Shown here in pieces: positions 45,302 to 56,068 of a stretch of DNA of 64,000 bases. Source of the DNA: Croceivirga thetidis. GTDB taxonomy: Bacteria; Bacteroidota; Bacteroidia; Flavobacteriales; Flavobacteriaceae. The notes below the pieces were generated by a model. It saw nothing but the letters and a program-made list of their open reading frames with translations, made no database searches and was not told the DNA's origin. Position numbers and translations under genes: made by a program. The stretch is taken from positions 278,280 to 342,279 of the forward strand of contig NZ_JAAWWL010000002.1 of the NCBI RefSeq assembly GCF_012272815.1. The letters are read 5' to 3'. Positions within the stretch are counted from its first letter, which is position 1, and the number at the start of each line of letters is the position of its first letter.

Positions 45302-47044
45302 ATGATGAAATATTCAGCTATCCCTTCTGCCAAAAATCTTGTTCTGGCTTTTAAGGAAAAGGGTATCAAAGACATCGTTATTTCACCTGGCTCTAGGAAT
45401 GCACCATTGATTTTAAGTTTCACTGCGGATTCCTTTTTTAATTGTTTCAGTATTGTTGACGAACGCTCTGCGGCATTTTTTGCATTGGGCATGGCACAAA
45501 ACCAAAAAAGGCCAGTAGCAGTTGTATGTACCTCGGGTAGTGCCTTATTGAATTACTACCCAGCAGTGGCAGAAGCATATTATAGTGATATTCCATTATT
45601 AGTGGTTTCTTCTGATAGACCACCTTATAAAATTGATGTTGGTGACGGTCAAACGATAAGGCAAGACAACGTTTTTGATAGGCATATCGGTTATTCTGCT
45701 AATTTAAAACTTGACGTTTCCCACGCGACTAAAAAGATACAGGAATACCAACCAGATTTGCTGCAGTCTACCCAAAAAGATGTTGATAAATTCAATTTAA
45801 AAGAATTGGAAACAGCTCTAGATATTGCATTGATTGATATGTTACCGGTTCATATCAATATTCCATTTGAGGAACCTTTGTACGAATTGCAAGAATTGGA
45901 GTCTAGACCAACGCTTTTATCCAATAGAAAAGGCCTTGCAACTGAATCCAAACAAAGTTTTATTGAATTCGCAGATAAATGGAAAGCTGCATCGAAAAAA
46001 ATGGTTTTGGTTGGCGTGAATTATCCCAATGAAATCGACCAAAGTTTACTCGATATATTAGCAAAAGACCCTTCAGTTATTGTCTTTACAGAAACTACGT
46101 CGAACCTTCATCATCCGGAGTTTTTCGCAAGTATTGATAGTATTATTTTCCCCATAGAGAAATCTGCCGGCCAAGATGATTTGTTTAAGAATCTTCAACC
46201 TGAAATTCTATTGACATTCGGTGGTTTAGTTGTTTCAAAGAAGGTTAAGGCCTTTCTTAGAAAATATCGACCAAAAGAACATTGGCATATAAATGAGATC
46301 AGAGCTTTTGATACCTATTTTTCGTTGACCGAACATGTTAAAACGAATCCTGAGAAGTTCTTAAGGGCAATCCTCAAAGATGCCAATGTTACCCATAGCG
46401 ATTACGCAAAGCACTGGAAAGTCAAGAAGTTGAACTATCGTAAAAAACGAGCACAATATCTTAAGGAGGTTCCTTTTACAGATTTTTCAGCTTTTCACAT
46501 TATTCTCCAAAACGTACCAAAGAATTATCAATTGCAATTATCAAACAGTTCGGTTGTTAGGTACGCTCAATTGTTTGATGTAGTCCCAACCTTAAAAGTT
46601 TTTTGCAACAGAGGCACCAGTGGAATAGACGGAAGTACCTCTACTGCGATTGGTGCTTCGTATTATGAAACCAGTCCGACGCTATTAATAACAGGTGATT
46701 TAAGTTTTTTCTATGATAGTAATGCCCTTTGGATTAATTATATCAAGAGCGATTTTAGAATCATACTAATGAATAATTCAGGGGGAGGCATTTTTAGAAT
46801 CCTTCCAGGGAATGATGGTTCAGAAACGTTTGAACGATATTTTGAAACCAAGCAAAATCTAAATGCAGAACACCTTTGTCATCAATATGGGTTGGAATAT
46901 TTAAAATGCGGTAACAAACAACAATTGGAAAATTCACTTAACACCTTTTTTAAGCCATCTGCGAAGCCCCGTGTACTTGAAATTTTTACTCCTAGGGAAC
47001 TAAATGACAAAATTTTGCTCGGTTATTTCGATTTTATATCTTAG
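45302..47044 (+). CDS. menD: 2-succinyl-5-enolpyruvyl-6-hydroxy-3-cyclohexene-1-carboxylate synthase (MenD)
   Basis: A 580-residue thiamine diphosphate enzyme joining isochorismate and 2-oxoglutarate. The N-terminal pyrimidine-binding domain has DIVISPGSRNAPL, DERSAAFFALGMA and VVCTSGSALLNY. The C-terminal TPP/Mg motif is GDLSFFYDSNALW with NNSGGGIF. The length matches MenD. The initiator may be either of two adjacent ATGs. Confidence 0.97.
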   Translation: MMKYSAIPSAKNLVLAFKEKGIKDIVISPGSRNAPLILSFTADSFFNCFSIVDERSAAFFALGMAQNQKRPVAVVCTSGSALLNYYPAVAEAYYSDIPLLVVSSDRPPYKIDVGDGQTIRQDNVFDRHIGYSANLKLDVSHATKKIQEYQPDLLQSTQKDVDKFNLKELETALDIALIDMLPVHINIPFEEPLYELQELESRPTLLSNRKGLATESKQSFIEFADKWKAASKKMVLVGVNYPNEIDQSLLDILAKDPSVIVFTETTSNLHHPEFFASIDSIIFPIEKSAGQDDLFKNLQPEILLTFGGLVVSKKVKAFLRKYRPKEHWHINEIRAFDTYFSLTEHVKTNPEKFLRAILKDANVTHSDYAKHWKVKKLNYRKKRAQYLKEVPFTDFSAFHIILQNVPKNYQLQLSNSSVVRYAQLFDVVPTLKVFCNRGTSGIDGSTSTAIGASYYETSPTLLITGDLSFFYDSNALWINYIKSDFRIILMNNSGGGIFRILPGNDGSETFERYFETKQNLNAEHLCHQYGLEYLKCGNKQQLENSLNTFFKPSAKPRVLEIFTPRELNDKILLGYFDFIS

Positions 47045-47074
47045 GCAACAGTCATAACAATTTAAACACATACC

Positions 47075-47416
47075 ATGAGCAAAAGAGACGAATTAATTGA
47101 AAAATATGCGGCTGACATCAAAGAAAAGTTTGGTGAATCGCCCGATATGGATTTATTAACCAAAGTTACTGTAGGCCTTGGTCCCGCAATTTATAATCTA
47201 GATGCATCGAAAGTTTCTGGAAGCGACGAAAAAGAGTTGGAAACAGTAAAAAACAATTACTTGATTAAAAAGTTGGGCTTAAGTGATAGCCCGGATTTAA
47301 TGACAGCGATAAATTCCGTAATCGAGAAATATGGTCGTTCTGAAAAGAACAAGCATCGTGCGGTTATTTACTACCAATTGTGCAGGCATTTTAGCAAACA
47401 GTCTGTTTACAATTAA
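47075..47416 (+). CDS. DUF2853 family protein
   Basis: A 113-residue soluble helical protein starting MSKRDELIEKYAADIKEKFG and containing DLLTKVTVGLGPAIYN and NKHRAVIYYQLCRHF, which match DUF2853. Function is unknown. It follows menD by 30 bases and is closed by a terminator. In many Flavobacteriia, as I recall, menB sits right after this gene; here the next gene is an S1 protein. Confidence 0.9.
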   Translation: MSKRDELIEKYAADIKEKFGESPDMDLLTKVTVGLGPAIYNLDASKVSGSDEKELETVKNNYLIKKLGLSDSPDLMTAINSVIEKYGRSEKNKHRAVIYYQLCRHFSKQSVYN

Positions 47417-47437
47417 ACAGTTAAAATATTTGAATTT

Positions 47438-47467
47438 AAACCGTCCTTTTTTTGGGACGGTTTTTTT
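47438..47467 (+). terminator. terminator after DUF2853 gene
   Basis: CCGTCC (47441-47446) and GGACGG (47455-47460) with flanking A/T pairs and an 8-base T-rich loop, then a run of Ts. It closes the menD-DUF2853 unit, 15 bases before the next start. Confidence 0.88.
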
Positions 47468-47481
47468 ATCTACAAAATTTA

Positions 47482-48312
47482 ATGATTAAAATAGGTGAAT
47501 ACAACATTCTCAAACCTGTAAGAAATACCAGTGTTGGTGTATTTTTAGGTGATGATGAAGGCACTGAAATTCTATTACCGAATAAGTACGTTCCAAAAGA
47601 CTTTGAATTTGAAAAAAGCCTTGAGGTATTTTGCTATTTAGACCATGAAGAAAGGCCCGTAGCGACCACTTTAACACCAAAGATAAAAAGGGATGCATTT
47701 GCTTATTTAGAAGTTGCCGACATCAATAAATTCGGAGCTTTTCTTGATTGGGGTTTGGAAAAACAGCTTTTTGTACCGTATCGCGAGCAGCATGAAAAGA
47801 TGGAGGTTGGAAAGGCCTATTTGGTATATTGTTTTTTGGATGAAAAGTCTTTTCGCATAGTGGCCTCTTCTAGATTGGATAAGTTTCTTTCCAATCAAGA
47901 AGTAAATTTTAAAGTTGGTGATGAGGTTAATCTTACCTTTTGGAGAAAAACCAATCTTGGTTGGGAGGTAATTGTAAACAAAAACAACAAGGCATTAATT
48001 TACCATGATGCAATTTTTGGCAAAGTAGATAGTGGCTTTCGTACCAAAGGTTTTGTAAAAAAGATTAGAGAAGACGATAAAATTGATGTCTCTCTGCAGC
48101 CTGAAGGGATTCGAATGTTGGAACCAACTGCCGACTTAATTTATAATGAACTCATAGAAAGGGGGGGGTACCTTAAAATGAACGACAAATCAAGTCCTGA
48201 AGAAATAAGATTGGTTTTCGGAATTAGTAAAAAGGCTTTTAAAAAAGGACTGGGTGTGCTCTATAAGGCTAAGAAGATTATATTTGAGAATGAGGGTATT
48301 AGAAGTACATAA
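47482..48312 (+). CDS. CvfB-like S1 RNA-binding protein
   Basis: A 276-residue protein with S1/OB-fold domains (VGVFLGDDEGTEILLP; INKFGAFLDWGLEKQLFVPYRE; ALIYHDAIFG) and a C-terminal winged helix (VFGISKKAFKKGLGVLYKAK). This is the CvfB/YitL organisation of RNA-binding regulators. The ATG at 47482 is used because an upstream in-frame start (47452) lies inside the terminator hairpin. Its targets are unknown. Confidence 0.92.
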   Translation: MIKIGEYNILKPVRNTSVGVFLGDDEGTEILLPNKYVPKDFEFEKSLEVFCYLDHEERPVATTLTPKIKRDAFAYLEVADINKFGAFLDWGLEKQLFVPYREQHEKMEVGKAYLVYCFLDEKSFRIVASSRLDKFLSNQEVNFKVGDEVNLTFWRKTNLGWEVIVNKNNKALIYHDAIFGKVDSGFRTKGFVKKIREDDKIDVSLQPEGIRMLEPTADLIYNELIERGGYLKMNDKSSPEEIRLVFGISKKAFKKGLGVLYKAKKIIFENEGIRST

Positions 48313-48421
48313 ATCGATAGAATTTGTTTTTCATCGATTATTCATACGATTTTGTCTATGTTAGCGATAAAATTTTAATAAGAAAAATCAACTTAGCAAA
48401 AAACAAAACCCCCCAACCAAA

Positions 48422-49024
48422 ATGCCATTTATAGAAGAAAACGATTTACTAGATCTTCATAAAGATATAGACAAGGCTCAAAGCATGAACGAAAAGCTTT
48501 TGGACCAGATTAAAATTAAAAATAAGGACTTCAAAAAAATCAAATTACAGCGCAACCTCTTATTAGGGTTTACCGTTTTTGTAATCGTAGGATTTTTGGC
48601 TTTAACATCCTTTACAGCAGGTTTGAGCTTTACCAATTCCAAAACCAACCAAGACAATATGGTTTTGCACTCTCTTGATAGTTTGGAAGCCTATAAAGCG
48701 AGAATAGCCAACCTTAAAGAACAAAACCAAGAGTTGAGTTTGGTGAAAGAGTTTTATCTGGCGAAGGAATTTTTACAGAAAGAAATCGTCTACTCCGTTC
48801 AAATTAAGTCTTTTGCCGAAAACAACGTTAGTCTTACTTCAGATGCATTGACGAATACTTTATTTTCAAAGGCAAACCCTTATTATTCCTATTCAATAGG
48901 TACATTTGAGACCTTGGCAGAAGCGCAAGACCTTAGAAAACATTTGGTTGAAGCTGGGATAGAAGACGCTTTCGTTGCCTCATACAAAAACGGTAAGCGA
49001 TTAAAAATTGAAGCTCCTTTTTAA
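48422..49024 (+). CDS. single-pass membrane protein with C-terminal SPOR-like domain
   Basis: A 200-residue protein: a cytoplasmic helical N-terminus (1-45), one transmembrane helix (LLLGFTVFVIVGFLALTSFTAGL), a coiled coil (about 78-110), and a C-terminal repeat of the SPOR type (VYSVQIKSFAE..., YYSYSIGTFETLAEAQDLRKHL, AFVASYKNGKRL). SPOR domains bind denuded septal peptidoglycan, so a cell-division or envelope role is likely. Its stop is followed directly by the TTG start of menA. Confidence 0.82.
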   Translation: MPFIEENDLLDLHKDIDKAQSMNEKLLDQIKIKNKDFKKIKLQRNLLLGFTVFVIVGFLALTSFTAGLSFTNSKTNQDNMVLHSLDSLEAYKARIANLKEQNQELSLVKEFYLAKEFLQKEIVYSVQIKSFAENNVSLTSDALTNTLFSKANPYYSYSIGTFETLAEAQDLRKHLVEAGIEDAFVASYKNGKRLKIEAPF

Positions 49025-49933
49025 TTGAACAAAATTCTCATTTGGCTAAAAGCTGCAAGGTTAAGAACCTTACCATTATCCCTTTCTGGAATTATAGTAG
49101 GTACAGCTATGGCCAATGCCAAAGGCTTTAATGATATCTTGGTCTTCATTTTAGCTCTTTCTACCACGGTAGCTTTTCAAATAACATCAAATTTCGCCAA
49201 CGATTATGGTGATGGTACAAAAGGTACTGATGACGAAAATAGAATAGGGCCAAAGCGAGTTTTGCAAAGTGGTTTATTGAGCAAATCAGCACTAAAAATT
49301 GGAATTCTGATTTCAATCACCATTAGTTTATTTCTTTCTGTCATATTATTGTATTCAGCCTTTGGCAACGAAAACTTTGGTCTGTTAATTATATTTTTAT
49401 TGTTGGCAATCGGGAGTATATGGGCGGCAATACGATATACTGTTGGAAAAAACCCATATGGATATCAGGGGTTAGGCGATTTGTTTGTTTTTCTCTTTTT
49501 TGGAATTTTAGCTGTCGTTGGTGCCGAATTTCTCTTTACAAAAAGAGTAGAGTGGTTGACCTTTTTACCGGCAATAACAATAGGTTTATTGAGCACGGCT
49601 GTTTTAAATCTTAATAATCTTCGTGACCACACACAAGATAAAGTTCACGGAAAAAGTACACTTGTGGTAAAGATGGGATTTCGAAAGGGTAAGGTTTATC
49701 ATAACCTTATTGTAATTTTAGCCTTCTTGGCCTTGATTTGCTATCATTTACTTAGTCAGCTTTCAATAGAAAGTGGATTTTATTTTTTGGCCTTTCTTCC
49801 GATTTTCATACATCTAAGGAAATTGAATAAAATATCTGAACCACGCAAAATAGATCCAGAGTTAAAAAAAGTTGCTCTGAGCACCTTTTTGCTGTCGATA
49901 CTCTTCTATTTTGCTGTAAATTATTTTTATTAA
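49025..49933 (+). CDS. menA: 1,4-dihydroxy-2-naphthoate polyprenyltransferase (MenA)
   Basis: A 302-residue UbiA-family membrane prenyltransferase with about eight or nine helices. The two Asp-rich motifs are NFANDYGDGTKGTDD and LNNLRDHTQDKVHGKST. It attaches the isoprenoid tail to DHNA to give demethylmenaquinone. The start is a TTG immediately after the SPOR gene stop, giving the conserved IWLKAARLRTLPLSLSGIIVG. Confidence 0.95.
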   Translation: MNKILIWLKAARLRTLPLSLSGIIVGTAMANAKGFNDILVFILALSTTVAFQITSNFANDYGDGTKGTDDENRIGPKRVLQSGLLSKSALKIGILISITISLFLSVILLYSAFGNENFGLLIIFLLLAIGSIWAAIRYTVGKNPYGYQGLGDLFVFLFFGILAVVGAEFLFTKRVEWLTFLPAITIGLLSTAVLNLNNLRDHTQDKVHGKSTLVVKMGFRKGKVYHNLIVILAFLALICYHLLSQLSIESGFYFLAFLPIFIHLRKLNKISEPRKIDPELKKVALSTFLLSILFYFAVNYFY

Positions 49934-49967
49934 TTTTGATTATAAATCTCTCAAAACCAAGACTAAT

Positions 49968-50729
49968 TTGGAACACCCCATTAAAATTTTAATAGTAGAA
50001 GATAACGTTATCATAGCCGATGACATGCAGTCAATGCTCGAAGAGATTGGTTATGAAGTAGTTGATAACGTTATTGTTTATGAGCAGGCCATTGAGGTCT
50101 TAAAGAACAACCACGTTGATTTGGTGTTAATTGACATCATATTGGCATCCGACAAAACCGGTATAGATTTGGGCAGGCATATACGTGAAGTATATAACAT
50201 TCCATTCATTTTCGTTACCTCGAATTCTGATAAAGCGACTGTTGAAAATGCTAAAACGGTAAAACCTGATGGCTACTTGGTGAAGCCATTTGAACAACAG
50301 GATCTCTATACTTCAATTGAGATTGCACTTTCTAATTTTAATTATGCACAAAAGAGTCAAGCTGGTGTAGGAAGTGCGGTTCAAGAAGCTGATGATAGTT
50401 TTTCGTCAAATTCCATATTGAAAGATTCTATATTCGTTAAAAAACAACACTTGTATTACCGAATACAGTTTGGTGACATTCAGTTCATCAAAGCAGATAA
50501 TGTGTATTTGGAAGTGAATACTGTTGATAAAAAGTTTTTGGTTAGGTCACCTTTGAAGGATTATTTGGAGAAGTTGCCTAAAAACAAGTTTTACAGGGCT
50601 CATAAGTCATACATTGTTAATGTTGATCATATTGATGCCATTAATTCTAAGGATATAATGATAAACAATACTCTTATACCGATTTCAAAGGATTTTAAAG
50701 AGTTTATAATATCTTCCATGAATTCTTAA
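49968..50729 (+). CDS. LytTR family response regulator
   Basis: A 253-residue two-component regulator. The receiver domain (1-125) has acidic Glu11-Asp12, phosphoacceptor Asp56 (LVLIDIILAS), Ser/Thr switch (VTSNSD) and Lys (YLVKPFEQ). The LytTR DNA-binding domain covers about 150-250 (IQFGDIQFIKADNVYLEV, KNKFYRAHKSYIVNVDHID). LytTR proteins bind ACAGTT-type direct repeats with about 21-bp period; two such arrays lie just downstream, before the histidine kinase gene. The start is a TTG at 49968. Confidence 0.94.
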   Translation: MEHPIKILIVEDNVIIADDMQSMLEEIGYEVVDNVIVYEQAIEVLKNNHVDLVLIDIILASDKTGIDLGRHIREVYNIPFIFVTSNSDKATVENAKTVKPDGYLVKPFEQQDLYTSIEIALSNFNYAQKSQAGVGSAVQEADDSFSSNSILKDSIFVKKQHLYYRIQFGDIQFIKADNVYLEVNTVDKKFLVRSPLKDYLEKLPKNKFYRAHKSYIVNVDHIDAINSKDIMINNTLIPISKDFKEFIISSMNS

Positions 50730-50753
50730 GAAAAGACTTTTAACTGAAATTGT

Positions 50754-50783
50754 AAAAATGCCCTCATTAGGGCATTTTTTTTA
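50754..50783 (+). terminator. terminator after LytTR regulator gene
   Basis: ATGCCCT (50758-50764), loop CATT, AGGGCAT (50769-50775), flanked by As and a run of Ts. Confidence 0.9.
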
Positions 50784-50817
50784 TTCAATAATTTCAATAA
50801 AAACTTTTTGCTCAGTT

Positions 50818-50846
50818 CACAACAGTTTTTTCTTGTTTCACAACAA
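50818..50846 (+). repeat. ACAACA direct-repeat pair, 21-bp period (array 1)
   Basis: CACAACAG at 50818 and CACAACAA at 50839, start-to-start 21 bp. This lies just after the LytTR gene terminator. The spacing and the ACAGTT-like core of copy 1 (ACAACAGTT) fit a LytTR-type binding site. Confidence 0.6.
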
Positions 50847-50889
50847 TATTTTCTTTCTGCTAAATCATTAAGATAAATTAGTAGTGTAA

Positions 50890-50985
50890 TTGATATTCAA
50901 ATCAATACTTAAAAAGAGTAATTTTTTCATTTTCATATAGTGTTCTCGTAGAAGGGCCTTGCAAATCGCAAGGCCTTTTTTTTAC
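50890..50985 (+). ncRNA. candidate small RNA between LytTR repeat arrays
   Basis: A self-standing terminator (50955-50983) closes a stretch that holds no ORF and lies beyond the LytTR gene's own terminator, so something must start between about 50850 and 50950. A weak TAATTGAT box at 50887 downstream of repeat array 1 could be the promoter, giving an RNA of roughly 85-95 nt. The 5' end is a guess. Confidence 0.3.
50955..50983 (+). terminator. strong orphan terminator
   Basis: Perfect 8-bp stem GGCCTTGC (50955-50962) and GCAAGGCC (50968-50975) with a 5-base loop and eight Ts. No coding gene directly precedes it; the LytTR gene already ends at its own terminator 170 bases earlier. Confidence 0.9.
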
Positions 50986-51032
50986 AACAACATTAGGTGA
51001 TTTTACAACAGTTTATAGCAATTACACAACAT
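50983..51032 (+). repeat. ACAACA direct-repeat triplet, 21-bp period (array 2)
   Basis: TACAACAA at 50983, TACAACAG at 51004 and CACAACAT at 51025, each exactly 21 bp apart. The last copy lies 19 bases before the -33 element of the histidine kinase promoter. A LytTR-type operator is the best interpretation. Confidence 0.65.
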
Positions 51033-51051
51033 TTTTAATAGAACCCAAGGC

Positions 51052-51083
51052 TTGTATTTATGAATTTTTGACTTTTACATTTG
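51052..51083 (+). promoter_or_regulatory. promoter of the TPR histidine kinase gene
   Basis: TTG (51052-51054), 21 bases, TACATTTG (51076-51083). It leaves a leader of about 180 bases before the ATG at 51268; the leader holds no ORF longer than a few codons and no structure that I could name. Confidence 0.6.
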
Positions 51084-51267
51084 GTGAATACCATAATAAA
51101 TGGGACCCCTTAGATGTTTTTAGATAATTCTAATTTTAAAAGACTTGTATTTACATGGCTTCTTTTTTTAACTAAATTGTTGAATATTAGAATATTGCTC
51201 GAAAGAAATAATAATGGTTTGATGACGTTTTATTAAAAAACACCGGATACCTTACTAATGTTTATGA

Positions 51268-53244
51268 ATGAATATGCTGCGTAGAGCTTTAGCATCCTTT
51301 TTAATTACATACTTTTTTCCTTTTTTGATTTTCAGTCAGGAGGACGATAAAATTGTTCAAATAACAGATGATCCACTCGTTCAGTTTCAAAGAAAAGAAA
51401 CACCGACTAACAAGTTCAATTACTTTTTATCAATAGAAAACCCTTATGCCGAAAGTTCTGCCTACGATTGGTTGGAGACTTTAAATGTTTATATAGATAG
51501 TTCACAAAAGACCAATGATTCAATTACCGTTCGACTCTATAAAATATTAAATGCTGAATTATATAACCATCTAAAGGATTATACAAAAAGTCTAGCAGTT
51601 GCAAGGGAGGTTTATGCCCAAATGGAGGGTCTTTCAGAGGAACAGCAAGAGTTCTTGCTTGATGTCATGGATAGGAACTATCAGGCCCTAAAAATGTTTG
51701 ATAAGCAGATTGAAATTAGAACCTTAAAACAAACCAAAGGGTTTACTAATAAGATTAAATTTTACGATGTCTATGCTGAAATGGGTCTTTACAGAAAGGC
51801 TATGGATCAATACATAATGGATGAGCAGGGCACAATTAATGAAAGTGATTTTTTGGGTAAGGCCGTACACCGAAATAAAATCGGTAACTACTTAAGACTA
51901 GATAATTCTCCATCAACGGCAATTAATGAATTTAATAAAGCATCTGGGTTTTTAGAGGTCTACAATAGTGATATTTCATCTGACAAAACACAAGAGGCTT
52001 TGAATCAAAGTGCTTTGTTGGGCCTACAAATCAAAGGTAACATTGGTAAAAGTATGGTTGATTTAGGAGAATCTAGAGATGCTATTCCTTATTTGCAAGA
52101 GAGCATTGAAGGACTTAAAAAATTGGATTCGCCTGAGTATTCCGAAGACCTAATCGATAATGCACTGTCTTTAGCTGAGGCACATATTGATTTAGGAAAT
52201 GTCAGGACAGCTAAGAGACTTTTGGATTCGTATACCGAACTAAACTCCTTAGACCAAGAACAAAAAAGAAATCGACTTCTGGGCAACTACTATGACAAAA
52301 TTGAAAATTTTAGAAGTGCTTCTGTATTTTATCGCAGAAACGATAAGCTTTTGGATTCGCTACGGCAAAACGAGCAGTCCATTCTAAAACAACAATTAGG
52401 TGTAATTGTTGGAACCAATGATGTAGAGAATCAAATTACTCAAATGCAAGAGCAAAAGGCCGAGCTTGAAAAAATGAAAGGCGAGGTTAAAAACCGTGAT
52501 GAGCGCTTTAATTTGGTTATTATTTCATTGATATTTACGTTATTAGGATTTGCAGGATTGATTTTCGCGTATTTGAACAGTATTAAGAACCAGCGATTAA
52601 TTGAAAAGCAAAAATTCATAATCGAAGACTCTTTAAAGGAGAAAGAATCCTTACTTAAGGAGATTCACCATAGAGTTAAAAACAATCTTCAAATGGTCTC
52701 AAGTCTTTTGAGTCTTCAAACTAAGAATACCAAAAATAAGTCTGCAATTTTAGCCTTGGAAGAAGGAAAAAGTAGGGTTAAAGCGATGGCCTTAATCCAT
52801 CAAAAATTATATCAGAACGAAGATTTATCCGTAATCGAAATGCAGGGTTACATCGAAAGTTTGATAAACAGTGTCCAGTCCGTATATAAAAAAGGAGGGC
52901 ATAATATTTCAATAACCATTGATGCCGAAGGAACTGAATTGGATATTGATAGGGCAATCCCTTTTGGTTTGATTCTAAACGAACTGGTATCAAATACGTT
53001 TAAATACGCTTTTCCTAAAAGTGATGAAAACGGCAAAATATACATTCATCTCAGGAAGAATGGTAATAAGGGTGGTTATTTTGAATATTCGGATAATGGT
53101 GTGGGACTACCAGATGGCCTAAATGAAAGAACCAATTCTTCAATGGGAATACGATTGATAAACCGTTTGGTCAACCAACTACAATCAACTTTGAATATCG
53201 ATCAAAATTCAGACGGGGTGAGGTTCTGGTTCAATTTTGTGTAG
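51268..53244 (+). CDS. TPR-type sensor histidine kinase with HisKA_2 domain
   Basis: A 658-residue kinase: signal peptide (residues 1-23, ends LIFSQ), TPR-like helical repeats (about 60-375), a coiled coil, a transmembrane helix (LVIISLIFTLLGFAGLIFAYL), a HisKA_2 dimerisation box (LLKEIHHRVKNNLQMVSSLLSLQ) and a HATPase domain (LNELVSNTFKYAFPK, YSDNGVGLPDG, SSMGIRLINRLV). HisKA_2 kinases commonly pair with LytTR regulators, and the LytTR gene is directly upstream. Both are probably one signalling pair, with the kinase gene under control of the repeat array. Confidence 0.92.
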   Translation: MNMLRRALASFLITYFFPFLIFSQEDDKIVQITDDPLVQFQRKETPTNKFNYFLSIENPYAESSAYDWLETLNVYIDSSQKTNDSITVRLYKILNAELYNHLKDYTKSLAVAREVYAQMEGLSEEQQEFLLDVMDRNYQALKMFDKQIEIRTLKQTKGFTNKIKFYDVYAEMGLYRKAMDQYIMDEQGTINESDFLGKAVHRNKIGNYLRLDNSPSTAINEFNKASGFLEVYNSDISSDKTQEALNQSALLGLQIKGNIGKSMVDLGESRDAIPYLQESIEGLKKLDSPEYSEDLIDNALSLAEAHIDLGNVRTAKRLLDSYTELNSLDQEQKRNRLLGNYYDKIENFRSASVFYRRNDKLLDSLRQNEQSILKQQLGVIVGTNDVENQITQMQEQKAELEKMKGEVKNRDERFNLVIISLIFTLLGFAGLIFAYLNSIKNQRLIEKQKFIIEDSLKEKESLLKEIHHRVKNNLQMVSSLLSLQTKNTKNKSAILALEEGKSRVKAMALIHQKLYQNEDLSVIEMQGYIESLINSVQSVYKKGGHNISITIDAEGTELDIDRAIPFGLILNELVSNTFKYAFPKSDENGKIYIHLRKNGNKGGYFEYSDNGVGLPDGLNERTNSSMGIRLINRLVNQLQSTLNIDQNSDGVRFWFNFV

Positions 53245-53245
53245 T

Positions 53246-54040
53246 TTACCTAACATCACTTCGCAACACTACCTTGTGCAGCATTCTCGGAAAAAATCGC
53301 TTCAGGTATATTCCTGAAACCTCTTTTTTTCCAATGTAAGCTTCAAACTTTTCTTTTTCAATCGCGCTAATCATTCTTTTAGCGAAAATATTGGGAGGTA
53401 GTCCGTTCTTGGTTTTTTCATCTTCTTGGTTTTGTGGTTTTCCGTCACCAGTAAGTGCATTTATTGCTACATTGGTTTGAACAAAACCAGGGCAAATAAG
53501 GGTTACGTTCACACCATCTTTTTCATGTTCCATTCGCAAGCCATCAAAAAAACCATGTAGTGCATGTTTAGCACCACAATAACCTGATCGATAAGGAGAA
53601 CTGAATTTACCCATCAAACTTGTTACGGTTACAAAATGCCCATTATTTTGACGAATGAAATAGGGGAGAAGAGCTTTAGTCAACGCGACAGTACCTAGAT
53701 AGTTAACGTCTATTAATTTTTTATAGATTTCAAACTCTGTTTCAGCAATAAGAGAACGTTGACTAATTCCAGCATTATTAATCAAATAATCAATAGTTCC
53801 AAATGAGGACCAGGCTTGTTCTGTAATATTTGGAGCGCCTTCAAAATCAAGTAGGTCCAATGCTAAAATTTTAATGTTATTCGGATTTTGACAATTGTTT
53901 CGAACAAGTTCAAGTTCTTCATTCTTTCTTGAGGAAAGAATAAGTTTACATCTCTTTTTATCCAACTCATATGTTAGTGCTTCACCAATACCGGATGAAG
54001 CTCCTGTTATCCAAACGACTTTACCATCTATTTTTCCCAT
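53246..54040 (-). CDS. short-chain dehydrogenase/reductase
   Basis: A 264-residue classical SDR with TGASSGIGEAL, NNAG, catalytic Ser (VTVTSLMG) and YCGAK (YxxxK). This is the DHRS7/YqjQ-like type with a C-terminal extension (FEAYIGKKEVSG, KRFFPRML). The substrate is unknown. The ATG at 54040 is chosen; the longer reading to 54136 would overlap the divergent menC gene. Only 31 bp separate it from menC. Confidence 0.92.
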   Translation of the reverse strand: MGKIDGKVVWITGASSGIGEALTYELDKKRCKLILSSRKNEELELVRNNCQNPNNIKILALDLLDFEGAPNITEQAWSSFGTIDYLINNAGISQRSLIAETEFEIYKKLIDVNYLGTVALTKALLPYFIRQNNGHFVTVTSLMGKFSSPYRSGYCGAKHALHGFFDGLRMEHEKDGVNVTLICPGFVQTNVAINALTGDGKPQNQEDEKTKNGLPPNIFAKRMISAIEKEKFEAYIGKKEVSGIYLKRFFPRMLHKVVLRSDVR

Positions 54041-54071
54041 GGATTGAAATATAGCTATTTTTAAACTCTTT

Positions 54072-55124
54072 ATGGAAGCCTTATACAAAAAGCACGTTCT
54101 GAATTTTAAAAGACCAAGTGGTACTTCAAGGGGCATTATGACCGATAAAGAAACTTGGTTCTTGATTTTAAAGGATGAAAATAAATTTGGTATTGGTGAG
54201 TGTGGAATACTACGAGGATTAAGTATTGATGATAAACCGGATTATGAACAAAAGTTGCGATGGACTTGTGAAAACATTTCGATGGGTATTGACAAGTTGC
54301 TTCCTGAACTCATTGAATTTCCCTCCATTCAATTTGGATTGGAGCAAGCATTTCTTTCGCTTAAGGCAGCTACACCTTACAATCTTTTTGCCTCGGAATT
54401 CAATCAAAATGAATCCCCCATTGCTATTAATGGTCTAGTTTGGATGGGTGACGAATCGTTCATGCACGAACAAATTGAGGAGAAGCTCGTAGGTGGATTC
54501 AATTGTATTAAAATGAAAGTTGGTGCGATTGATTTTGAAAAGGAGCTAAAATTGCTTTCTTCCATAAGAACTCGATATAATTCTGAAGTTATTGAGTTGC
54601 GTGTTGATGCGAATGGAGCTTTTGATAAGGACAATGCCCTTTCTAAACTAAAACAATTGTCACAATTCGATTTGCATTCCATAGAACAGCCCATCAAGCC
54701 AAAACAATGGGAGGTAATGCAGGAGTTGTGTAAACAATCCCCTTTGCCCATAGCATTGGATGAAGAATTAATAGGTGTCTTTGAGAAAACCGAAAAGCAA
54801 AAATTATTGGAATTCGTAAATCCGCAATACATCATCCTAAAGCCTAGCCTTATTGGTGGATTTAGAGGGGCAGAAGAGTGGATTGAGATTGCTGAAGAAT
54901 TGAAAATTGGATGGTGGGTAACCAGTGCTTTGGAAAGTAATGTTGGTTTGAATGCCATTGCGCAATGGACTTACACCCTAAAAAGTAGTATGCCACAAGG
55001 TTTGGGAACAGGTAGTTTATTTACAAACAACTTTGATTCGCCGCTACAAGTTGCTGAAGGACAGCTTATTTATAGAAATGACCTATCTTGGCAGCCGAAT
55101 TTAATTGAAGATTTATGTATATAG
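54072..55124 (+). CDS. menC: o-succinylbenzoate synthase (MenC)
   Basis: A 350-residue enolase-superfamily enzyme dehydrating SHCHC to o-succinylbenzoate. The catalytic Lys pair is in CIKMKVGA, metal ligands are Asp in LRVDANGAF, Glu in SIEQPI and Asp/Glu in ALDEELIG, and the second Lys is in ILKPSLIGG. It starts a tight menC-CPBP-menE unit with overlapping ends (10 and 29 bases). Confidence 0.94.
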   Translation: MEALYKKHVLNFKRPSGTSRGIMTDKETWFLILKDENKFGIGECGILRGLSIDDKPDYEQKLRWTCENISMGIDKLLPELIEFPSIQFGLEQAFLSLKAATPYNLFASEFNQNESPIAINGLVWMGDESFMHEQIEEKLVGGFNCIKMKVGAIDFEKELKLLSSIRTRYNSEVIELRVDANGAFDKDNALSKLKQLSQFDLHSIEQPIKPKQWEVMQELCKQSPLPIALDEELIGVFEKTEKQKLLEFVNPQYIILKPSLIGGFRGAEEWIEIAEELKIGWWVTSALESNVGLNAIAQWTYTLKSSMPQGLGTGSLFTNNFDSPLQVAEGQLIYRNDLSWQPNLIEDLCI

Positions 55125-56068
55125 AGCAGGGGTATCGCGGAGATTTGGGAATGTGGAAATACTTTATTATCCCAGTTGGCTTTTTAGGTTTTATGGTTTT
55201 GAATTTTCTCGCTGTATTGGCTTCAGACGTTCCGGTTGATGTAATGATGAACCAGATGATTGAACAATTGGGGGTAAATGTAGTTCTAGCCATGAATCTT
55301 GGTTTTCTTGCCATTGGGTTATTTGTGGTCTTGGGTTGGACAAAATTGATTCATCCGCAGTCAATAACTTCATTAACTACTTCAAGAAAAAGAATAGATT
55401 GGAAAAGAGTTTTAACCGCATTTTTTATTTGGGGAGGACTTACTGCCACATTTGCCCTAGTGGATATATTAGCAGTATCACCTGAAGATTATATTTGGAA
55501 TTTCAATCTGAACAAGTTTTTGGTTTTATTGGTTATTGCCATTTTACTCGTACCATTACAAACCAGTTTTGAAGAATACCTGTTTAGAGGTCATATGATG
55601 CAAGGTCTAGGTATTTTGGCTAAGAATAGATGGGTGCCACTGGTAATTACTTCAACTCTTTTTGGTTTGATGCATATCGGAAATCCAGAAATTGGAAAAA
55701 TAGGATATATAGCACTTATCTATTACATCGGAACAGGTTTCTTTCTCGGGATAATTACTTTGATGGATGAAGGGCTTGAACTTGCCTTGGGCTTTCATGC
55801 AGCAAACAACTTGATTGGATTGTTGATAGTTACTTCTGATTGGGGGGCATTACAAGCAGACTCAATTTTTAGAAGTACAGCTGAGCCGGGCGCTGCCGTT
55901 CTTTCAGAAATTTTATTTCCAGTATTAATCGTATTTCCTATACTACTCTACATATTTGCCCGAATTTATAAATGGAGCGGTTGGAATGAAAAACTATTCG
56001 GAAGGGTTCAATCCAAAGAAGAATTTCTAGCTTTGGAAGATGCAGATGCACCCGAACTTCAAGCTTAA
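55115..56068 (+). CDS. CPBP family intramembrane glutamic endopeptidase
   Basis: A 317-residue membrane protein with about eight helices and the CPBP/ABI motifs: FEEYLFRG (EExxxR), FGLMHIG (FxxxH) and GFHAANNL. These proteases cleave substrates within the membrane (Rce1-like) or act in bacteriocin immunity. It is nested between menC and menE with overlaps at both ends, so it is expressed with menaquinone genes; a direct role in the pathway is not known. Confidence 0.92.
   Translation: MYIEQGYRGDLGMWKYFIIPVGFLGFMVLNFLAVLASDVPVDVMMNQMIEQLGVNVVLAMNLGFLAIGLFVVLGWTKLIHPQSITSLTTSRKRIDWKRVLTAFFIWGGLTATFALVDILAVSPEDYIWNFNLNKFLVLLVIAILLVPLQTSFEEYLFRGHMMQGLGILAKNRWVPLVITSTLFGLMHIGNPEIGKIGYIALIYYIGTGFFLGIITLMDEGLELALGFHAANNLIGLLIVTSDWGALQADSIFRSTAEPGAAVLSEILFPVLIVFPILLYIFARIYKWSGWNEKLFGRVQSKEEFLALEDADAPELQA

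Follow-up and report, generated by a model that had tools for sequence, protein, structure and literature searches.

What is made from two arrays of short direct repeats that lie between a response regulator gene and a histidine kinase gene, and does the regulator act through them? This question is raised by a 64,000-nt stretch of the Croceivirga thetidis genome (NZ_JAAWWL010000002.1, positions 278,280 to 342,279; here called the window, its first base being position 1), in which a LytTR response regulator gene (49968 to 50729) and a HisKA_2 kinase gene (51268 to 53244) flank five copies of [TC]ACAACA. An earlier reading of the window by itself (the sequence-only reading) had predicted that the regulator controls its own kinase along with any product of the first array. 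Judging from sequence comparisons, we consider it likely that this two-component system acts through small RNAs (sRNAs) that pair with an mRNA encoding an M48 protease and a protein of the DUF6747 family.

Genome comparison supports the operators and the sRNA family well; from there we infer that the regulator binds, in which direction it acts, that the RNAs are transcribed and pair in the cell, and what this does to DUF6747, as follows. The kinase would switch the regulator, which would bind pairs of ACCACA/ACAACA half-sites with a period of 21 and activate promoters with a −7 box exactly 34 nt farther on. Its main target would be a family of sRNAs of ~90 to 100 nt with an identical core and with a terminator, present in one to five copies per genome in relatives. 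The core (CAUUUUCAUAUAGUGUUCUCGUAAAAG) would be exposed for base pairing, and its best partner is predicted to be the mRNA for the M48 protease and the 55-amino-acid membrane protein DUF6747, which has two sites. One lies across the DUF6747 start codon (CUAUAUGGGAACACUAU), and pairing there would block translation. The other is an element in the 3′ untranslated region (3′UTR; CUCUUUUAC-NN-GAACACUAU) just before the terminator, which would either aid the block or sponge the sRNA.

Array 1 precedes a predicted sRNA gene

All five repeats were found exactly where the sequence-only reading had put them. Array 1 (CACAACA-N14-CACAACA, 50818 to 50845; all window features described here are on the plus strand) has copies starting at 50818 and 50839, and array 2 (50983 to 51031) has three, starting at 50983, 51004, and 51025, with every spacing within an array being 21 bp. 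Pairs of repeats with this period occur three times in the window, each time within 50730 to 51267, and never in 100 dinucleotide shuffles. Relatives have CACCACA-N14-CACAACA or degenerate forms at the position of array 1, which we regard as the putative operator of an sRNA gene. The segment from 50730 to 51267 had been taken to be free of genes, but it holds an intrinsic terminator (50754 to 50779) and a complete sRNA unit; the predicted product of the first array is a conserved sRNA that the sequence-only reading overlooked.

The −7 box of this unit, TAAATTAG (50874 to 50881), lies 34 nt from the second ACAACA of array 1 and is an imperfect match to TAnnTTTG; in relatives, the box is mostly TACATTTG or similar. 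The predicted transcript is ~96 nt long (50888 to 50983), with its 5′ end placed from the −7 box and its 3′ end from an intrinsic terminator with a 13-bp stem (50950 to 50983). The last T of this terminator is the first base of array 2, and it was missed by a simple scan that listed only the one at 50754 to 50779. The transcript contains the conserved core AATTTTTTCATTTTCATATAGTGTTCTCGT (50920 to 50949). When the units of this genome and ten relatives in the genus (11 sequences, loci L008 to L018) were aligned, 26 consecutive positions (50920 to 50945) were invariant, whereas column identity otherwise averaged 62% and the flanks diverged. All 11 genomes share the order of regulator gene, repeat pair, AATTTTTTCATTTTCATATAGTGTTCTCG unit, hairpin with T run, and then further repeats or the kinase gene. 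Conservation of the repeats in relatives that keep the gene pair had been proposed as a check, and operator-like pairs were present in all 11, although two of them (L016 and L017) have a first pair with one degenerate half-site.

A second sRNA copy in this genome was recognized by its core (G000:C2:529312-529336, G000 being this genome). With a 22-nt core and up to three mismatches, a search of the genome returned the two sRNA genes and only two weak matches, of which one lies where a small lipoprotein-like gene begins. The predicted fold of the window copy has −22.1 kcal/mol (z score of −4.2), and that of the second copy has −20.4 kcal/mol (z score of −4.6). In both, the terminator hairpin is the one stable helix; a weak additional helix takes up part of the core in the window copy, and in the second copy the core is unpaired.

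The predicted sRNA family has a fixed operator and promoter geometry

A search of 299 genomes of the family for a 25-nt core with up to two mismatches found it in 49 genomes, from 42 of 236 genera, with two copies in this genome. Each of the 49 had one to five matches, as expected of sibling sRNA genes with a common core, and the reversed control of the search gave 0 among the matches listed. An exact core scan of named species genomes yielded at least 120 stretches, and the genera among the matches listed include Maribacter, Allomuricauda/Flagellimonas, Arenibacter, Zobellia, Cellulophaga, Eudoraea, Muriicola, Croceitalea, and others. We assembled 171 distinct copies from 152 loci, many of them in related species and so not independent. 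The core columns of this set are fixed by the search itself; outside them, the sequence 3′ of the core stays GTAAAAGAG-like, at 69 to 99% per column.

The 166 copies with at least 120 nt of upstream sequence were examined for the half-sites AC[AC]ACA and ACAACA, each matching in at least five of six positions. A TAnnTTnR box was in range in 164, and in 160 both half-sites were present with a period of 21 and with a distance of 34 nt from the second half-site to the box downstream. By the same procedure, other spacings from 24 to 45 gave 0 copies except for 25 (5 copies), 28 (10 copies), and 31 (48 copies), and among other periods from 17 to 25 only 18 (73 copies), 23 (17 copies), 19 (2 copies), and 24 (2 copies) were represented. 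The ACnACA repeat itself probably accounts for the secondary peaks, which come at steps of 3. A stricter, literal operator pattern was found in 124 of the 171 copies. Downstream, a strict terminator rule (9 bp or more with no more than one mismatch, and a T tail) was passed by 158 of 165 copies, compared with 0, 0, 0, 1, and 0 in five shuffled sets, and a looser rule was passed by all 165, with 97 different left arms. An operator and a terminator at the individual genes are again what sibling sRNAs would have, the LytTR regulator being the presumed binder. Searches of Rfam 15 with positions 50500 to 51500 of the window returned only the rimP leader, at 21.1 bits against a gathering cutoff of 47, and 13 loci (57,009 bases) gave no covariance model match at an E value of ≤0.1.

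LytTR target promoters are described as having two repeats of 9 to 11 nt that are 11 to 13 nt apart, about two helical turns (PMC4847170), and repeat pairs with 11 to 13 nt between them are likewise reported in PMC11347149. The period of 21 in the window and in the 160 copies agrees with this description, the recognizable half-site here being 6 to 7 nt. The sequence-only reading was right to call this period typical of LytTR operators; its likening of the repeat to the ACAGTT of AgrA did not hold up, as the half-sites are ACCACA/ACAACA. The assignment to LytTR-type operators is also favored by the fixed promoter distance and by co-occurrence with the regulator. A regulator homolog (E value of ≤1e-90) was present in 56 of the 299 genomes, including all 49 that have the sRNA, and 243 genomes had neither; Fisher's P for this co-occurrence is 4e-49, which overstates the evidence because the carriers probably form one clade.

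At L039 and the 8-kb loci from the scan of named species, the sRNA copies recur at a few chromosomal places: behind the regulator gene (28 flanks), between a serine hydrolase-like gene and a menB-like gene (38 flanks each; genes named by eye), and at a third place (11 to 12 flanks). At L314 (genome G236), a gene pair on the opposite strand that by eye, from sequence, resembles a two-subunit molybdopterin oxidoreductase has an sRNA copy on either side, the two copies being 2.9 kb apart.

The M48-DUF6747 mRNA is a candidate partner

The 55-amino-acid open reading frame is DUF6747 (PF20532) and lies 3′ of the M48 protease gene (PF01435). We searched for the M48 protein in 30 of 58 genomes known to carry the sRNA; 28 matched, and 27 of these had DUF6747 behind the protease gene (the locus without it was L244). 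Protein homology located 24 of the 27 loci, and the other 3 (G000, G005, and G010) had been noticed through pairing. Within 110 nt after the DUF6747 stop codon, GAACACTA was found in 17 of the 27 loci and GAACAC in 20. The element mostly reads CTCTTTTAC-NN-GAACACTAT, the complement of AUAGUGUUC-NN-GUAAAAGAG in the sRNA. The region of the DUF6747 start codon contained CTATATG or CTATAATG in 17 of 27 loci and GAACACT in 16.

Duplex energies pointed in the same direction. Across the 27 loci, the core paired with the 3′UTR at a mean of −22.6 kcal/mol, compared with −9.8 kcal/mol (standard deviation [SD], 0.8) for 300 dinucleotide-shuffled cores, and with the start region at −17.3 kcal/mol, compared with −9.2 kcal/mol (SD, 1.4). 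None of the 300 shuffled cores did as well in either region. The values for this genome are −23.2 (3′UTR) and −15.8 (start region). Complementarity of the conserved part to target starts, another feature of sibling sRNAs, was found for one candidate target, DUF6747.

In most loci, the 3′UTR element also appears to be presented in a loop. The longest uninterrupted stem around the loop motif averaged 6.8 bp, compared with 5.3 bp (SD, 0.2; maximum, 6.0) when flanks from different loci were combined, and none of 2,000 such re-pairings reached the observed mean. The letters of the stem vary between loci while pairing is kept, i.e., they covary. Stems were short at some loci, with a longest run of 3 at L254 and L257, as in this genome, and of 4 at L243 and L263.

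Other comparisons concern which DUF6747 genes are involved. Of 13 DUF6747 loci drawn from five genomes, 5 have GAACAC close by, and these are of the M48-linked kind; the 8 that lack it are other paralogues. DUF6747 was found in 57 of the 299 family genomes. Every one of the 49 genomes with the sRNA is among these, as are 55 of the 56 that have the regulator; the exceptions are G040, which has only the regulator, and G157 and G227, which have only DUF6747. We looked for a joint change of sRNA and target in G106 and obtained no result, the DUF6747 genes of that genome not being of the M48-linked kind. Taken as complementarity, the predicted partnership with the M48-DUF6747 mRNA is well supported; as regulation, it is unproven.

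Close to the beginning of an LptC-like lipoprotein gene, there is also a 15-nt perfect complement of the core (G000:C1:1543724-1543738; L212 and L235). We rejected lptC as a conserved target; the site is kept in only 2 of 30 genomes (G000 and G001).

Array 2 and operators before kinase genes

The sequence-only reading had placed the second array 19 bases before a consensus promoter. A possible kinase promoter, TTG-N21-TACATTTG, is indeed present (51052 to 51083, with TTG at 51052 to 51054 and TACATTTG at 51076 to 51083), but the gap between the last repeat and TTG is 20 bases, and the distance from the last ACAACA to this TACATTTG is 50 nt rather than the usual 34. In 9 of the 11 genus genomes, the pair that corresponds to array 2 precedes a second noncoding RNA (ncRNA) unit, which consists of a C[CA]AA[AT]TCTTA motif (CCCAAATCTTA...) followed by a TATAGTGT-like sequence and a terminator. 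This unit was found after the second array at L009 to L017, L200, L202, L203, and L211 and is absent from this genome. Seven of the 11 genus genomes (L009 to L015) have a third operator, with one degenerate half-site, 34 nt before TAATTTTG and upstream of the kinase gene, so that the order after the regulator gene is core sRNA, second ncRNA, and third operator. L016 and L017 have the first two units; in this genome and in L018, the first is the only one with canonical spacing. The promoter link in the predicted control of the kinase is weaker in this genome than the sequence-only reading had it; array 2, with its three copies, has an unusual form here, and it may plausibly still serve the kinase.

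We also examined the 73 regulator loci for which 400 nt or more of sequence behind the gene was available; some of these may represent the same species twice. The core was within 450 nt in 53, the second ncRNA motif was found in 22, both were found in 19, and neither was found in 17; by a loose pattern, 68 of these loci had at least one repeat pair and 51 had at least two.

Elsewhere in this genome, a gene for a 610-amino-acid PAS/HATPase_c kinase (C3, ~75282 to 77111; L312 and L313) has a perfect ACCACA-N15-ACAACA upstream, with TACTTTTA at exactly 34 nt from the pair, the geometry of the predicted sRNA promoters.

Points against the proposed circuit and alternative explanations

A number of observations limit the proposed circuit or weigh against it. 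The genome-wide scan for [TC]ACAACA pairs that was to reveal the regulon did not do so: ACAACA-N15-ACAACA and its reversed control pattern each occur 7 times, so the bare pair does not define the regulon. Relaxing the pattern to ACMACA-N15-ACAACA gave 13 occurrences against 7 in the control, and we rejected the bare pair as a definition. As we predict it, the regulon is defined by the pair together with a −7 box 34 nt downstream; 3 of the 13 pairs have a −7-like box at that distance, namely, array 1, the second sRNA copy, and the PAS kinase. In this genome, however, the −7 box of array 1 is a poor match, and array 2 lacks such a box at 34 nt. The regulator occurs without the core in 7 of the 56 genomes (G040, G087, G106, G232, G244, G265, and G297); these have the most distant regulators, which are 67 to 75% identical, and inspection by eye shows repeat arrays and terminator-like units in several of them. 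Neither co-occurrence nor conservation provides independent observations, since the carriers probably form a single clade. Pairing has its own difficulties. The 12-nt complements of the core with one mismatch showed no general enrichment in this genome (20, compared with 16 in the control), and exact 14-nt complements outside the sRNA genes were found in only 4 of 54 genomes searched, inside the start of the LptC-like gene in G000 and between the stop codon of the 55-amino-acid open reading frame and the terminator in G005, G007, and G010. The start-codon site overlaps the MGTL codons, and its conservation may be partly that of the protein. The stem test covered the 21 of 27 3′UTRs that had a recognizable loop motif and dropped the other 6, and the 3′UTR element of this genome has no clear stem (longest run, 3).

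Among alternative explanations, the strongest keeps the sRNA family and changes the role of the mRNA. The 3′UTR element would be a sponge or decoy, the mRNA would lower the amount of free sRNA, and the true targets would lie elsewhere, DUF6747 itself not being regulated. This explanation gains from the better pairing of the 3′UTR site, with its wider margin over the shuffles than that of the start-codon site, from the display of that site in a loop with a covarying stem, and from the report of an RNA sponge for Qrr sRNAs (PMC9732341). A mere sponge would have no need for a complementary start-codon site, however, and that site too was equaled by none of the 300 shuffled cores; we regard the explanation as possible but rather doubtful. 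A different proposal is that the arrays serve only the protein genes of the regulator itself (kinase feedback), with the core as a leader or untranslated element that has no role in trans. The operators spaced 34 nt from a box before the kinase gene in 7 of 11 genus genomes and the PAS kinase of this genome with the same operator and −7 box speak for it. Against it, the unit has its own terminator and recurs, with operator and terminator, elsewhere on the chromosome beside other neighbors (e.g., at L039), and we consider it improbable.

Two further explanations seem to us very improbable. The core could be the start of a peptide gene on the minus strand, given that its reverse complement contains ATGAAAATGAAAAAA, which reads MKMKK...; the frame and the stop positions differ between relatives (by eye), however, and the operator, −7 box, and terminator all read on the plus strand. 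The arrays could also be chance AT-rich repeats that are conserved only through recent shared ancestry. The control-level frequency of bare ACAACA pairs elsewhere in the genome fits that idea, but the absence of such pairs from all 100 window shuffles does not, nor does a geometry that is fixed in 160 of 166 copies while the intervening sequence varies. Hardly any weight can be given to either.

Genes and terminators of the locus

The product of the regulator gene (253 amino acids) has the receiver and LytTR domains of a LytTR response regulator (PF00072, 74.8 bits against a cutoff of 30.2; PF04397, 64.8 bits against a cutoff of 22.6). The kinase (658 amino acids) matches HisKA_2 (PF07568) and HATPase_c (PF02518), with an additional, subthreshold TPR match. 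Both genes had been named correctly in the sequence-only reading. The terminator at 50754 to 50779, 3′ of the regulator gene, was the one found by the simple scan, with 0.3 expected from shuffles. Compared with ten genus relatives, the regulator is 90 to 92% identical (10 of 10), the UbiA protein is 54 to 60% identical, and the kinase is 42 to 50% identical (partial hits).

Menaquinone genes surround the regulator-kinase pair (window positions 45302 to 56068), with a MenD-like gene at 45302, a UbiA/MenA-like gene at 49025, and a MenC-like gene at 54072. UbiA-type genes likewise lie upstream of the regulator in the distant regulator group. At one locus of that group (L197, genome G106), up to four repeat-array units were seen by eye between regulator and kinase, each with a terminator-like hairpin and with differing ncRNA sequences.

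Comparison with known systems

Sibling sRNAs under response regulators are known from streptococci and vibrios (PMC8186281), and among the papers listed in our literature searches, a few of which we read in part, we saw no sibling-sRNA system of this kind for this family of marine bacteria. Our literature search also found no papers on DUF6747. If the proposed circuit is correct, it would give a first handle on this family of unknown function and on LytTR regulators in Bacteroidota. DNA alone yields the operator, the promoter geometry, the RNA, the core, and a candidate partner, and the circuit can therefore be tested in one strain.

A same-family sRNA, Rfp18 of Flavobacterium psychrophilum, has a reported effect on protease mRNAs (PMC9723704). 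It is described as strongly folded and as pairing through its third stem-loop, and LytTR is unmentioned in the excerpts of that paper. In the predicted folds of two copies, the RNA described here has one stable hairpin, the terminator, and judged by these descriptions it would differ from Rfp18.

Gram-positive bacteria provide examples of LytTR-class regulators that drive an adjacent sRNA gene. In group A Streptococcus, the AgrA/ComE-like regulator FasA binds upstream of the adjoining sRNA gene, fasX (PMC12675982, PMC3673130). The likeness to FasBCA-FasX is that the regulator would act via an sRNA encoded beside its own gene; in contrast to FasX, which is present once per locus, the RNA here has one to five identical-core copies per genome, a HisKA_2 kinase, a host in the Bacteroidota, and no Rfam match. 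In the agr system of Staphylococcus aureus, a LytTR regulator drives both its own operon and a regulatory RNA, RNAIII, from neighboring promoters with paired repeats (PMC3673130). The RNA here, at ~96 nt, differs from RNAIII, and the half-sites and the kinase are also unlike those of agr. In the case of the csRNAs of streptococci, one response regulator, that of the CiaRH system, controls several similar sRNAs with start-codon complementarity and direct-repeat operators (PMC8186281). All of these features recur in the predicted family. The CiaR site is TTTAAG-N5-TTTAAG, however, whereas the operators here are of the LytTR type with a period of 21, and the regulator gene has one sRNA copy as its neighbor.

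The regulator type and promoter class of the LuxO-Qrr system of Vibrio differ from those described here. What is shared is a set of sibling sRNAs under one response regulator (PMC8186281), and a sponge RNA is known for Qrr (PMC9732341); unlike the Qrr sponge, the candidate sponge here is a 3′UTR element of the candidate target mRNA itself. As predicted from sequence, the sRNA circuit matches no described Rfam family and works like a blend of FasX, RNAIII, csRNAs, and Qrr. We would give even chances to the more specific proposal that it is the Bacteroidota counterpart of Qrr and the csRNAs, in which one LytTR two-component system would work chiefly through a multicopy sRNA family with an invariant core, this family would be held in check by a dedicated loop in the 3′UTR of the mRNA for DUF6747, a clade-specific membrane protein, and the DUF6747 mRNA would be both target and sponge.
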